DNA from: Kineococcus endophyticus | Lineage (GTDB): Bacteria; Actinomycetota; Actinomycetes; Actinomycetales; Kineococcaceae | Reading direction: 5' to 3' | Length of the DNA: 64,000 nucleotides | Assembly (NCBI RefSeq): GCF_040796495.1 | Contig: NZ_JBFNQN010000016.1 | Location: 1 to 64,000 of the forward strand | Part shown: piece by piece, positions 5,319-62,418 of the stretch | Layout of the letters: every line of letters starts with the position of its first letter | Numbering within the stretch: position 1 is the first letter of the stretch | Notes under the pieces: generated by a model | Databases searched by the model: none | The model's input: only the letters and a program-made list of their open reading frames with translations | What the model was told of the DNA's origin: nothing | Position numbers and translations under genes: made by a program

Positions 5319-6209
5319 TCAGCCGGCGGGTGTCGTGAGGTCGACCCTCTCGCGCCCGTCGGCGCCCTGGCGCCGCTCCCGCCCGGCGGTCCCGGTCGCC
5401 CCGGCGGAGGCGAGGACGACGAGCACGACCCCGAGGCCGCCGAGCAGCGTCATCCGCTGTCCCAGCAGCGCCCAGCCGGCGAGGGAGGCGATGACGGGTT
5501 CGAGGCTGAGGAGGATGCCGAACGTGCGCTGCGGCAGCCGGCGCAGCGCCGCGAGTTCGAGGGAGTAGGGCACCACGCTGGCCAGGAGCGCCGTGCCCAG
5601 CGCCCACCACAGCCCGTTCGGGGTCCCGAGGGCGTGCACGGCGCCGCCGGCCCCCAGCGGGACGAGCGCCAGCGCCCCGACCGCGGTGGCGACCGCCAGG
5701 CCGCCGTGACCCGGCACGAGCCGGCCGACCCGCGCGCTGGCCATGATGTAGGCCGCCCAGCAGGCGCCGGCCAGCAGGGCGAAGACCACGCCGACGGGGT
5801 CGAGGGATCCGCCGTGGTGCTCACCGGTGAGCCCGAGGACGAGGACCCCCGCGAGCGCGAGCCCCACCCACAGCAGGTCCCGCAGCCGGCGGCTGAGGAC
5901 GGCCGAGAGCGTCAACGGCCCGAGGAACTCGATGGTGACGGCGGTGCCGAGGTCGATGCGGGAGATGGCCGCGTAGAAGCAGCCGTTCATGGCCCCCAGG
6001 CTCAGACCGAGCATGACCGCGGCCCGCCACTGCAGACCCGTCCAGGCGCGGACGCGCGGGCGGACGACCACCAGCAGCACGAGCGCGGCGAGGCCCAGGC
6101 GCAGCAACGTCGTCCCGGTGCTCCCGCCGAGGGCGAAGAGGTGGACGGCGAGCGCGGCGCCGACCTGGAGCGACGTGCACGAGCCGATGACGAGGAGGAC
6201 GGGACCCAC
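5319..6209 (-). CDS. EamA/RhtA-type drug/metabolite exporter
   Basis: 296 aa from GTG 6209. About ten hydrophobic helices in two EamA repeats: the first starts at VLLVIGSCTSLQVGAALAVHLF, the second at PVGVVFALLAGACWAAYIMASARVG. The motif SLEPVIASLAGWALLGQRMT near the end is typical of the RhtA threonine/homoserine exporter branch. The C-terminal tail is polar and rich in Arg and Gly. It sits in the inner membrane and probably exports an amino acid or similar small metabolite. It is divergent from a LysR regulator 85 bp away, a pairing common for amino-acid exporters. Confidence 0.85.
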   Translation of the reverse strand: MGPVLLVIGSCTSLQVGAALAVHLFALGGSTGTTLLRLGLAALVLLVVVRPRVRAWTGLQWRAAVMLGLSLGAMNGCFYAAISRIDLGTAVTIEFLGPLTLSAVLSRRLRDLLWVGLALAGVLVLGLTGEHHGGSLDPVGVVFALLAGACWAAYIMASARVGRLVPGHGGLAVATAVGALALVPLGAGGAVHALGTPNGLWWALGTALLASVVPYSLELAALRRLPQRTFGILLSLEPVIASLAGWALLGQRMTLLGGLGVVLVVLASAGATGTAGRERRQGADGRERVDLTTPAG

Positions 6210-42271: not shown

Positions 42272-43138
42272 TCACACGCTGACCTCCTCCTCCAGCCAGG
42301 CCCGGAGGGCGGCGGCGATCGCCGGGGAGGAGTCGTGCGGGAGGAAGTGCCTGCCCGGCACGACGACCTCCCGCTGCCGCGGCCACCGGCGACACGCCTC
42401 CAGCACGGCGCCGATGACGACGGCCCCGGGATCGCCCCGGACCAGCAGCTTCGGCAGGGAGCTCCCCGCCAGGAACCCGGCCCCCGCCGCCACGCGGTCG
42501 TGGACCTCGGGCGGGTCACCGTCGATCGGGATCTGCCGGGCCCACGTGAGCATCGCCCGCCGTCCCTCCCCCGGCTCGGCGAAGGGACGGCGGTGGGCCT
42601 CGAGCTCCGCCGGCGTCAGCATCCGCTGCGTCCCCGCCTGCAGGACGACCTCCACGAAGACGTTCTCCTGCAGCACCATCCGCTCCCCGTCCGGGCCCCG
42701 CAGCGCCCCGAACAACTCCGGGTCCGGCCCGGTCCCCTCCCGCCACGACACGGGGACGACGCCCGCCTCCAGGTGCGCCAGGGCGCGGGCGGCGCCGGGG
42801 TGCCGGCGGGCCCAGTCCGCGGCCAGCACACCGCCCCAGTCGTGGCCGACGAGCACGACGTCCCGGTCCAGGCCGAGCGCCTGCACGGCGGCGTCGAGGT
42901 ACCGGGCGTGCTCAGCAAACCCGTACCGCGCGTCCCCGGTCCCGGGCAGCCGGTCCGAATCTCCCATCCCGATGAGGTCGACGGCTGTGCAGCGGTACGC
43001 GTCGGACAGGTCGGCCACGACGTCGGCCCACAGCAGCGACGACGTGGGGTTGCCGTGGAGGAACAGGACGTCGCGGCCGCTTCCCACCCGGCGGTAGGCC
43101 ATGCGGTGACCGAGGACGTCGACGTTGGACGGCTGCAC
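42272..43138 (-). CDS. Haloalkane dehalogenase-like alpha/beta hydrolase
   Basis: 288 aa from GTG 43138. The order of motifs matches the haloalkane dehalogenase II/dhaA group: HGNPTSS with halide-binding Asn30, nucleophile Asp100 and Trp101 in LVGHDWGG, catalytic Glu124 (HLEAGVVP) and His264 (PGRHFLPHDSS). IGMGDSD is also typical. All five key residues are present, so dehalogenation is plausible; related epoxide hydrolases lack the Asn-Trp halide pair. Convergent with the MFS transporter, ends 5 bp apart. Confidence 0.7.
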   Translation of the reverse strand: MQPSNVDVLGHRMAYRRVGSGRDVLFLHGNPTSSLLWADVVADLSDAYRCTAVDLIGMGDSDRLPGTGDARYGFAEHARYLDAAVQALGLDRDVVLVGHDWGGVLAADWARRHPGAARALAHLEAGVVPVSWREGTGPDPELFGALRGPDGERMVLQENVFVEVVLQAGTQRMLTPAELEAHRRPFAEPGEGRRAMLTWARQIPIDGDPPEVHDRVAAGAGFLAGSSLPKLLVRGDPGAVVIGAVLEACRRWPRQREVVVPGRHFLPHDSSPAIAAALRAWLEEEVSV

Positions 43139-43236: not shown

Positions 43237-43731
43237 GTGCAGGCCGGGACCAGCGTTCGCCACGCCCGGCCCACCGACGCCTCGCAGATGGCGCGGGTGC
43301 ACGTCGACGGTTGGCGGCAGACCTACCGGGGGACGGTGCCGGACGGGGTGCTGGACGATCCCGGACTCCTCGCGTCCCGGGAACGCTTCTGGCACGGGGC
43401 CCTCACCGACGAGCGGTGGGCCCGCAATGCGGTCGCCGTCGCCGAGGTCGGCGGCACCGTCGTGGGCATCGCCATGGCGGGTCCTCCTCCGGACCCGGAG
43501 GCGTGGTGGCAGGTGCAGCTGCACGTCCTGTACGTCGACCCAGACCACCACGGTTCGGGCGCTGCGGCGGAACTGCTGGACGCCGTCGTCGACCCGACCG
43601 CTCCCGCAGCGCTCTGGGTCGCCGACCCGAACCCCCGGGCCCAGGTGTTCTACCGCAAGCACGGGTTCGCCCCCGACGGGCACGCGAGGACCGAGGACGG
43701 AGTCCGGGAACTGCGGTGGGTCCGCCCGTGA
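43237..43731 (+). CDS. GNAT acetyltransferase coupled to the SET-domain gene
   Basis: 164 aa from GTG 43237; a TTG at 43201 would add 12 residues. N-terminal VRHARPTDASQMARVHVDGWRQTYRG and acetyl-CoA motif A VLYVDPDHHGSGAAAELLDAVV identify a GNAT protein. ALWVADPNPRAQVFYRKHGFAPDG is motif B. The stop overlaps the GTG of the SET-domain gene, so an acetyltransferase and a predicted methyltransferase are made together. Substrate unknown. Confidence 0.8.
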   Translation: MQAGTSVRHARPTDASQMARVHVDGWRQTYRGTVPDGVLDDPGLLASRERFWHGALTDERWARNAVAVAEVGGTVVGIAMAGPPPDPEAWWQVQLHVLYVDPDHHGSGAAAELLDAVVDPTAPAALWVADPNPRAQVFYRKHGFAPDGHARTEDGVRELRWVRP

Positions 43732-44267
43732 CGACGGACCTGCCCGGCCCCGACTGCTGGCTGAACCCCCTCGTGCGCGTGGGCCGGTCCGGTATCGACG
43801 GCGAGGGCCTCTTCGCCGAGGCTCCGATCGCCCGCGGTGAGGTCATCAGCCGTTTCGGGGGTCGGCTCGTCACGGACGCGGAACTGCGCGACCTCCTCAC
43901 CGAGGCCGCGGCCACGGGGACCTACGTCGACACCCTGTCCCTGCTCACCGACGAGAACCTCGTCCTACCGGCCGGCGCGCCCCAGCACGCCGGGAACCAC
44001 GGGTGCGACCCGAACACCTGGTGGGTCGACCCCTGCCTCGTCGCGGCCCGCCGCGACCTCGACGCCGGGGAGGAACTGACCCTCGACTACGCCACGATCA
44101 CCGACGACCCGGAGTTCGCGATGGATTGCTCGTGCGGGTCGGAGTCCTGCCGCGGTCGGGTGACGGGGTCCGACTGGCGACTGCCGCACCTGCAGGCGGC
44201 CTACGGACCGCACTGGGTCCCGGTGCTGCGGGAACGCATCGGGACGCGACCAGCCCGACGGCACTAG
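43728..44267 (+). CDS. Bacterial SET-domain protein (putative lysine methyltransferase)
   Basis: 179 aa; GTGA overlap with the GNAT gene. SET core: VRVGRSGIDGEGLFAEAPIARGEVISRFGG, then AGNHGCDPNTWWVDPCLVAARRDLDAGEELTLDYATI, the NHxCxPN pseudoknot and DY catalytic motifs, and post-SET cysteines MDCSCGSESCRG. All three elements required for SAM and zinc binding appear complete. In bacteria such proteins are uncommon; targets are mostly unknown. Convergent with the small membrane protein, overlapping it by 4 bp. Confidence 0.85.
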   Translation: MTTDLPGPDCWLNPLVRVGRSGIDGEGLFAEAPIARGEVISRFGGRLVTDAELRDLLTEAAATGTYVDTLSLLTDENLVLPAGAPQHAGNHGCDPNTWWVDPCLVAARRDLDAGEELTLDYATITDDPEFAMDCSCGSESCRGRVTGSDWRLPHLQAAYGPHWVPVLRERIGTRPARRH

Positions 44268-44500
44268 TTCCGGCGCTTGGCGACCTCGAGGCCGGCGATG
44301 ACCGCGGCGGCCACGACGAACGCGATCAGAGGCGCCACCACGGCACCGCTCCCCGTCGCGGTGAGGGACAACCGCTGCCACAGCCCCGGGCCACGCCCCA
44401 CTCCGAGGAGGACCAGGGGCACCACCCCCAGCGTCACGCCCACGAGAGCCGCGAGCCCTTGCCACGCGTCGTGCTGCTTGCTCCCGCTCCTGGTTCCCAC
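44264..44500 (-). CDS. Small two-helix membrane protein
   Basis: 78 aa. Two hydrophobic stretches: GLAALVGVTLGVVPLVLLGVG and GAVVAPLIAFVVAAAVIAGLEV, with a short basic C-terminus (AKRRN). ATG preceded by GAGGGAGGA. I do not recognise the family. It is divergent from the TetR gene at 44586 and within reach of the palindrome at 44556, so it may be regulated by it. It converges with the SET-domain gene. Confidence 0.6.
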   Translation of the reverse strand: MGTRSGSKQHDAWQGLAALVGVTLGVVPLVLLGVGRGPGLWQRLSLTATGSGAVVAPLIAFVVAAAVIAGLEVAKRRN

Positions 44501-45221: not shown

Positions 45222-45282
45222 CGTCGGGCGACACCCGGAATCGAATGGCGGACGGAACTCCCTGACCGTCAGGATCTCGAGA

Positions 45283-45768
45283 GTGCTCCTTCCTGCGACG
45301 ATCGCTCTGCGCCGCGCCACCCCGGACGACGCCCCGGCGTTGGCTGACCTCAACGCCCACGTGCAGCGACTGCACGCGGACGCGCACCCCGACCAGTTCT
45401 CCCCCGTGAGCCACTCTGCGGTGCAGGCGTTCTTCGACACCGCCCTGGCGGGTGGTCCGGACCTCGCCTGGATCGCCGAAATCGCCGAGGAACCGATCGG
45501 CTACCTCTACGCGGTCGAGGCGCACCGGGACGCCAACCCCTTCACCACCGAGCAGCACACCCTCCACGTCCACCACCTCGCCGTCGCCCCCACCGCCCGC
45601 CGGTGCGGGGTGGGATCGTCCCTCCTGCGGGCCGTGGTGGGGCACGCCCGGGACGCGGGCCTCGACGGCCTGCTGCTGGACAGCTGGACCTTCAACGCCG
45701 AAGCGCACGCTTTCTTCCGGCGGTTCGGGTTCGAGCCGATGCAGACGCGGTTCGCCCTGCGCCTGTGA
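45283..45768 (+). CDS. GNAT acetyltransferase
   Basis: 161 aa from GTG 45283; the frame extends upstream into the TetR region but the real protein begins at LLPATIALRRATPDDAP. Motif A: HHLAVAPTARRCGVGSSLLRAVV; motif B: LDGLLLDSWTFNAEAHAFFRRFGFEPM. Typical of single-domain GNATs modifying small molecules or proteins. Five bases separate it from the convergent HAD gene, so both may share a terminator. Substrate unknown. Confidence 0.8.
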   Translation: MLLPATIALRRATPDDAPALADLNAHVQRLHADAHPDQFSPVSHSAVQAFFDTALAGGPDLAWIAEIAEEPIGYLYAVEAHRDANPFTTEQHTLHVHHLAVAPTARRCGVGSSLLRAVVGHARDAGLDGLLLDSWTFNAEAHAFFRRFGFEPMQTRFALRL

Positions 45769-48330: not shown

Positions 48331-48726
48331 TCACGCGAACCGGTGCATGAACAGGCGTTCCGGTCGCCCGGCCGAGCCGCGCTCCTCGACCCGCTCGGTC
48401 GCCGTCCAACCCAACCGCTCGTAGAGGGCGACCGCCCGCGCGTTGTCGGCGATGACCCACAGCTCACACCGCTCGAATGCCTCCGTCCGCGCGCGGGTTA
48501 GTACGCTCTCCAACAACGCCCGCCCCACCCCGGCCCCCCACGCCGTGGGATCGGTGGCCAGGTAGCGGACCTCGAGAACAGGCCCCTGCGGGACCAGCAC
48601 GCAGAAACCCTCGACCGTCGGTCCGCGCCGGGCCACGAGCAACGACGCACCCGCCTCGCCCAGCGACTGCTGAACGCCGACGAGCTTCTCCGCGAGCGCC
48701 GGGACCGCGGGCAGGTGGTCCCGCAC
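48331..48726 (-). CDS. GNAT acetyltransferase, possibly N-terminally truncated
   Basis: 131 aa from GTG 48726. Motif A: YLATDPTAWGAGVGRALLESVL; motif B: CELWVIADNARAVALYERLGWTATERV. Upstream codons in the same frame (RRRPLVVEPGVGLAAQREAAGVWARAVAVRD) look like the missing first strand and helix of a GNAT fold, but no ATG, GTG or TTG begins them before an in-frame stop. The start is therefore lost or displaced. It may be a degraded gene, or a start codon may have been altered by an error in the sequence. Confidence 0.65.
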   Translation of the reverse strand: MRDHLPAVPALAEKLVGVQQSLGEAGASLLVARRGPTVEGFCVLVPQGPVLEVRYLATDPTAWGAGVGRALLESVLTRARTEAFERCELWVIADNARAVALYERLGWTATERVEERGSAGRPERLFMHRFA

Positions 48727-61905: not shown

Positions 61906-62418
61906 TCAGGCGAAGACCAGCTCCATCTCGAGCTCCTCCTCCGTCGGGTCCAGCACGTACGGGACCCGCAGCCCGTTCTCGACGAACCCCCGGCGACGGT
62001 AGAACGCCTGGGCCCGCACGTTGCGCTCGTGCACGTGCAGCTTCATGCCCGACGCGCCCGGGGCGGTCCGCGCCCAGGCGAGGACCTCGGTGAGCAGCCG
62101 GTCCGCCAGCCCTCCGCCGCGGTGGGCGGGGTCGACGAAGACGGAGACGAGGAAGACGCCCTCGACCGGGTCGGTGTAGGCGCCCATCGTGCCGACCCAC
62201 CGGTCCGCCGAACCGCCCGCCTCCTCGACGCCGACCACCGTGAAGCTGCCCGGCAGCCAGGTGCGTCGCACCCGGAACCGCCACTCCGCCTCGTCGAGCG
62301 TGCGGGCCGTCTCGAGCGTCTCGGCGTACGCCTCGGGGGTGTCGGCCAGCATCCGCAGCCGCAGGTCGCGCCAGCGCTCCCACTCGGGCTCCACGGGCCT
62401 GCGCACCTGCACGGTCAC
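61906..62418 (-). CDS. GNAT acetyltransferase
   Basis: 170 aa from GTG 62418. N-terminal VRRPVEPEWERWRDLRLRMLADTPEAYAETLE; motif A VFVDPAHRGGGLADRLLTEVLAWAR; motif B LHVHERNVRAQAFYRRRGFVENGLRVPYVLDPTEEELEMEL. This ending and the RDLRLRALADAPEAF-type opening are characteristic of a common actinobacterial GNAT group. Divergent from the hypothetical gene at 62509. Substrate unknown. Confidence 0.85.
   Translation of the reverse strand: MTVQVRRPVEPEWERWRDLRLRMLADTPEAYAETLETARTLDEAEWRFRVRRTWLPGSFTVVGVEEAGGSADRWVGTMGAYTDPVEGVFLVSVFVDPAHRGGGLADRLLTEVLAWARTAPGASGMKLHVHERNVRAQAFYRRRGFVENGLRVPYVLDPTEEELEMELVFA

Follow-up and report, generated by a model that had tools for sequence, protein, structure and literature searches.

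SET domains are known chiefly from histone-lysine methyltransferases; in one of these, MLL1, the tyrosine of the CYMF loop lines the lysine channel. Members of the GNAT and SET families usually act on a nucleophilic nitrogen or sulfur, using acetyl-CoA or S-adenosylmethionine. To our knowledge, the functions of the SET enzymes of free-living bacteria are largely open, BurB being one of the few for which the substrate is established. BurB of Burkholderia thailandensis belongs to the malleicyprol/DMSP pathway and methylates free methionine on sulfur; the report on this enzyme (PMC12542666) assigns roles to His93, Tyr124 and the post-SET motif and describes the residues that contact methionine as doing so by the main chain, so that a methionine pocket is unreadable from the sequence of the SET protein described below. 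No description of a GNAT-SET fusion or operon was found in the literature searched, which consisted mostly of papers outside subscription: the words ‘acetyltransferase' and ‘fusion' are absent from the main text of a review of bacterial SET proteins (PMC3980110), and the passages of PMC1282579 consulted describe no such fusion or operon.

In Kineococcus endophyticus, a GNAT gene and a SET gene lie next to each other in the 64,000-nucleotide stretch of contig NZ_JBFNQN010000016.1 (assembly GCF_040796495.1) that is referred to here as the window. As the sequence-only reading of this DNA had it, the two genes share a GTGA: the GNAT-family N-acetyltransferase gene (43237-43731, + strand, 164 aa, GTG start; PF00583) ends within the start of the gene for a SET plus post-SET protein (43728-44267, + strand, 179 aa, GTG start; PF00856), with the stop/start overlap read from the sequence at 43728-43731 on the + strand. 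Translational coupling is possible for such an overlap. Upstream of the GNAT gene and pointing away from it is an alpha/beta hydrolase gene (42272-43138, - strand), and downstream of the SET gene is a 78-aa ORF without a Pfam match (44264-44500, - strand); with the flanking ORFs on the other strand on both sides, the pair looks like an isolated two-gene unit. A promoter right before the GNAT start seemed possible by eye, and a promoter scan of the region upstream of the gene gave no promoter-like site. The third-position G+C is 0.89 for the GNAT gene and 0.91 for the SET gene, close to the 0.96 of a neighbouring MFS gene and the 0.95 of the hydrolase gene. The GTG start of the SET gene is supported by a relative from the same family (G005, locus L010), in which the sole start codon before the match falls in the same alignment column. 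Given the Pfam matches, the invariant SET residues, the G+C content and the support for the SET start, it is very probable that the two ORFs are genuine genes.

The SET protein matches PF00856 with E 6.9e-9 (36.5 bits against a curated cut-off of 22.4) and is the only match to this family in its genome. The motifs that had been read as intact are confirmed, namely N90 H91 G92 C93 D94 P95 N96 (NHGCDPN), D120 Y121 and the post-SET cysteines C134, C136 and C141. All 47 SET rows of the alignment, the window included, share N90, H91, C93, D120, Y121 and the three cysteines, and R142, G147, D149 and W150 are likewise invariant in the 47 rows; the conserved C-terminal tail, TGxDWRxPxLQxxYGxHWxPxLxxRI, extends outside the Pfam match. 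The AlphaFold2 model (mean pLDDT 94.5, pTM 0.87) has MLL1, MLL4, NSD1 and ASH1L as its top Foldseek matches, with MLL1 (2w5z) the best at 8.1e-10, and aligns with MLL3 at Z 14.6 and an rmsd of 1.8 over 130 residues in VIA-align. BurB (9l4v) ranks 49th in Foldseek, with E 5.2e-8; it is absent from the VIA-align matches listed, which excludes nothing. MLL1, MLL3 and ASH1L have the same fold as the window protein and resemble it in their NHSC, DY and post-SET cysteines; the window protein differs in being bacterial, in having only 179 aa and no other domain, and in the column of the MLL1 CYMF tyrosine, which is occupied by Asp68 according to two alignments read by eye, in a loop that varies in length. 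In this column, D is found in 31 of the 47 rows and S in 8.

The likeness to BurB (PDB 9l4t, 9l4v) lies in the architecture and in the motifs. BurB is a compact single SET plus post-SET enzyme of 172 aa, both proteins contain DYA, CxCG, CR and ITG (DYA...FECHCG..CR..ITG), and H91, Y121 and CxC...CRGxVTG of the window protein align with BurB residues 93-152 and with DYA...CHCGAPNCRRWITG, so that the window SET protein is a compact SET protein in which His93, Tyr124 and the post-SET motif have counterparts. The difference is that the sequence alignment stops at ITG and never reaches the DWRxPxLQxxY...RI tail of the window protein. A profile of the whole family scores 91 bits with MLL1 and 64 bits with BurB among the solved structures, whereas for a profile of the C-terminal part, in which these four motifs are held in common, BurB is the best solved match. 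Sequence and fold thus leave the substrate of the SET protein unsettled.

The GNAT protein matches PF00583 (E 4.8e-12, 46.6 bits against a curated cut-off of 20.7) and PF13508 (E 1.6e-11), and its nearest solved chain by sequence is 1wk4, a ‘probable acetyltransferase' (E 2.4e-10); its scores with the NCBIfam equivalogs for RimI, phosphinothricin and ArsN1 are far under their cut-offs. It has orthologues in the genus and the family, with 60-67% identity in three genomes (G007, G009 and G011). The 5.04-Mb genome of the window has 68 PF00583 matches, and four more genomes, of 6.7-10.7 Mb, have between 77 and 147 each; assuming about one gene per kb, this amounts to approximately 1-2 GNATs per 100 genes. 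The window itself contains further GNAT genes at 45277-45768, about 47.1-47.5 kb, 48331-48726 and 61984-62277, several of them within about 20 kb of the pair, so that a chance adjacency of GNAT and SET is likelier here than elsewhere.

Among the close relatives, the pair is not kept. The SET gene is found in 4 of the 12 family genomes searched (G000, G001, G005 and G009), and of these carriers, only the window's genome has a GNAT beside it. SET matches are lacking in two of the genomes with a GNAT orthologue (G007 and G011); G009 has both genes, its closer GNAT orthologue lying 1.2 Mb or more away from SET. The SET copy of the congener G001 is decayed (L012, about 5642-6069): it is split over two frames, has DH for DY and has W in place of one post-SET cysteine. 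Seven of the 297 genomes searched in the order have SET kin; of the other six carriers, three belong to the window's genus and three to one other genus, and neither kin of the window GNAT nor any match to the GNAT model was detected in the surroundings of SET in these six (11.5-13 kb for the search for kin). On the tree, the window SET protein groups with the unlinked proteins of G005, G009 and Isoptericola (69%).

Further afield, the picture changes. SET kin were found in 21 of 396 genomes of the phylum by a single-sequence search and in 44 of 394 genomes of the class by a profile search. An alignment-based search of genome contigs gave at least 579 stretches with SET kin, of which the best 80 were used; these loci were gathered regardless of their neighbours and are the best-scoring ones, not a random sample. 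A single-sequence search of the same contigs found no SET relative, its patterns probably being too specific, and phage records gave no SET match at E 1e-5. Within the best 80 of at least 579 loci, the SET frame extends upstream to include a GNAT domain in six Kribbella genomes (L096, L103, L105, L107, L112 and L114); the same is true of Umezawaea tangerina (L120) and of a Chloroflexota MAG (L124). Both Pfam domains exceed their cut-offs within one ORF in L096, L103, L105 and L112 of Kribbella and in Umezawaea; L107 and L114 are called fused by frame and HMM only, and the GNAT matches of the Chloroflexota fusion are just under the cut-offs (25.8 of 26, 23.8 of 25.4 and 19.5 of 20.7 bits). Two loci have the domains in separate genes on the same strand, with the GNAT upstream in Streptomyces MP131-18 (L088; 7 nt before the SET start) and downstream in Micromonospora humi (L063; 21 nt after the SET stop). 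Several borderline loci stayed out of these counts: L106, with a GNAT domain about 610-800 nt downstream of SET, was counted as unlinked, and the long open frames upstream of SET in L121 and L137 were judged by eye to be noise, that of L137 having just SET and a weak SAF match in Pfam. In the class sample, 7 of the 20 loci of the actinobacterial families f119 and f121 (L140, L141, L147, L148, L149, L154 and L177) have a same-strand ORF after SET whose second half contains a GNAT domain; these calls come from the HMM for all seven and from Pfam for three (L148, L149 and L177, 314-324 aa), and the ORF starts are uncertain.

The Kribbella fusion of locus L103 is 328 aa long. The AlphaFold2 model of the Kribbella fusion is one confident chain (pLDDT 92.8, pTM 0.84) with structure matches to PaiA in its GNAT part (E 5.1e-9) and to MLL1 in its SET part (6.0e-9); the predicted structure shows both folds whole and carries no inference to communicating sites. 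With its GTGA overlap, the window pair falls in with these loci as a coupled unit, in the sense of one ORF or same-strand adjacency; its GNAT does not belong to the same subfamily as that of Kribbella. The conclusion that the pair is not conserved, first drawn from the loci of the genus and the order alone, was overturned by a scan of 88 loci. Conservation of the pair, on which the sequence-only reading had made its proposal depend, fails within the genus, where the other carriers lack a GNAT beside SET and GNAT orthologues occur without SET; beyond the genus, there is a recurrent joining of GNAT and SET that includes one-ORF fusions.

The excess of joined loci was estimated from the GNAT density around SET. 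Because earlier GNAT models were biased, having been seeded with linked GNATs or kin of the window GNAT, the count was redone with a final model built on 20 GNAT domains that lie elsewhere in five genomes (the window's and four with a linked pair). In the far flanks (over 1.2 kb from SET) of the best 80 of at least 579 loci, there are 8 GNATs in 557,230 bases; at this density, 0.92 GNATs are expected within 400 nt of SET, compared with 10 observed among the 80 loci. All 10 are on the SET strand and 8 are in the SET frame, with Kribbella giving six of them; counted by genus-level group, the linked loci fall into 5 of 31 groups. The Poisson probability against 0.92 is 5e-8 for at least 10 and 0.0025 for at least 5, for these best 80 of at least 579 loci. 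On a FastTree tree of 129 of the 134 SET loci, from which fragments shorter than 120 aa were left out (L013, L014, L015, L125 and L133), GNAT linkage (18 rows) takes at least 12 changes, or seven when trust is limited to the starred branches; shuffled labels take a mean of 17.2 changes, so that linkage is the more clustered of the two. These change counts imply several gains of linkage, or several gains and losses. Of 38 genomes from the family group of Kribbella, 11 have the fusion (split in two in one genome), 12 have this GNAT and no SET, 3 have SET or part of it and no GNAT, and 12 have neither gene; this co-occurrence is not significant (Fisher p 0.10).

The window GNAT has no blastp match under E 0.1 with those of Kribbella, Streptomyces L088, Micromonospora L063 or Chloroflexota L124, and among seven GNATs, one per arrangement, the only matching pairs are the window and Umezawaea (5e-8, 70 residues) and Umezawaea and L149 (2.5e-4). 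By sequence comparison, the partner GNATs joined to the SET family are mostly non-orthologous, and with the seven compared, no single substrate is indicated.

The other neighbours of SET vary among lineages. Crude ORF clustering detected no non-SET gene cluster that the majority of the 83 loci have in common near SET; the largest such cluster (34 loci) consists mostly of antisense ORFs over SET and distant sigma-factor-like ORFs, and some neighbours are common within families f93, f119, f121 and f122. A seryl-tRNA synthetase-like ORF cluster, recognized by eye, lies near SET in 33 of 50 loci compared by clustering; these loci are in the range L135-L178 and mostly in these four families, which suggests vertical inheritance of the place there. 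Picked examples, as distinct from a count, of exporter and small-molecule genes beside SET include LysE in G005, a flavin reductase in G009, an MFS gene in L013, a FUSC/ArAE-type exporter in Nonomuraea (L086), PhzF in L126 and a DegT aminotransferase in L132. Five Nonomuraea loci (L064, L078, L084, L086 and L087) have ORFs of similar appearance immediately before SET, the exporter assignment by Pfam pertaining to L086 only. SET is also found fused behind a D-Ala-D-Ala-ligase-like ATP-grasp domain (L032:274-1764, with NHSCDP and CxC...C) and, on plasmid pSYMBR3459 of Paraburkholderia phenoliruptrix, to a HAD hydrolase (L039:4872-6416) amid a phosphoserine aminotransferase, two SDRs and a DMT transporter. 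Neighbours of other kinds include a uracil-DNA glycosylase (L070), TetR (L123) and a weak methyltransferase match (L083), and that in L067 has no Pfam match.

Several explanations of the pair have to be weighed. A travelling SET gene could have landed behind an unrelated GNAT, the two perhaps being co-transcribed and functionally independent; the absence of the pair elsewhere in the genus, the different SET surroundings across the 83 loci compared, the presence of SET in just 7 of 297 order genomes and the 68 PF00583 matches in 5.04 Mb, several within about 20 kb of the pair, all fit this explanation, which is nevertheless on the unlikely side in view of the joining in 10 loci or 5 groups of the best 80 of at least 579 against 0.92 expected (P 0.0025 for at least 5) and of the one-ORF fusions in three lineages, even if fusions in other genomes are no proof for the case of the window. 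It is improbable, too, that the pair modifies a bacterial protein, with SET methylating a lysine and the GNAT acetylating either the same amine or one next to it. The PDB entries nearest in fold and in sequence are indeed lysine methyltransferases of the MLL, ASH1L and NSD types, and several plasmid records name relatives ‘SET domain-containing protein-lysine N-methyltransferase'; set against this are the Asp68 that stands in the column of the MLL1 CYMF tyrosine in the two alignments read by eye, in a loop of variable length, the different GNAT subfamilies joined to the same SET family, and a sparse distribution that would misfit a core ribosomal or chromatin target. The sequence-only reading had suggested a chromatin or ribosomal protein as the common target, and beyond the protein-lysine-type fold, nothing found points there in particular.

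A methionine S-methyltransferase of the BurB type, with the GNAT acting on S-methylmethionine or a derived amine, would agree with the small size, the Asn-His and Tyr residues, the post-SET cysteines and the ITG motif that the SET protein shares with BurB, as well as with the Foldseek E of 5.2e-8. This assignment is nonetheless highly improbable: BurB falls under MLL1 with the family profile (64 vs 91 bits) and ranks 49th in Foldseek, and the seven proteins scanned with Pfam (the GNAT, SET and five neighbours) include none of the burI, burD and burE kind, be it a decarboxylase, an aminotransferase or a dehydrogenase.

The favoured reading, to which a probability of about 40% can be attached, is that the genes form a two-gene operon, an unfused GNAT-SET unit that tailors or neutralises a small amino compound. 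Under this reading, the window genes would yield two separate chains of the same two-activity unit that is one chain in Kribbella, Umezawaea and a Chloroflexota lineage; the GNAT would move acetyl from acetyl-CoA onto an amine, and the SET protein would move methyl from S-adenosylmethionine onto nitrogen or sulfur. The substrate would most likely be a small amino compound, such as an amine, a short peptide or an amino acid, rather than a ribosomal or chromatin protein. From the fusions and the overlap, GNAT and SET would seem to be needed in equal quantities or for a single substrate, and the exporter and small-molecule genes beside or fused to SET, together with BurB, would make a small amino compound the likelier one. 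Both genes, their overlap, the intact SET motifs and the repeated joining of GNAT and SET in other genomes are observed; catalytic activity, co-transcription, co-translation, a common substrate and its small size are inferred. Against the small-compound operon are the absence of the pair from the nearest relatives (G005, G009 and Isoptericola) and the occurrence of GNAT orthologues without SET, the non-significant co-occurrence in the Kribbella family group (p 0.10), the mostly non-orthologous partner GNATs, the GNAT-rich region of the window, the nearest PDB folds and sequences being protein-lysine methyltransferases, the SET neighbours that are not small-molecule genes (L070 and L123) and the lack of a promoter-like site upstream.

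The recurrent joining outside the genus, including the one-ORF fusions, supports a functional acetyl/methyl pairing in general, and the GNAT-SET partnership may be real. It is a tentative and rather improbable proposition that there is a recurrent bacterial two-activity GNAT-SET enzyme, assembled several times independently, that places acetyl and methyl on the same substrate and that the window encodes in unfused form. The repeated fusion of SET to an acetyltransferase offers a compact protein (328 aa in L103) with which to seek a joint substrate using the two cofactors, and this makes the question of a joint substrate directly testable.
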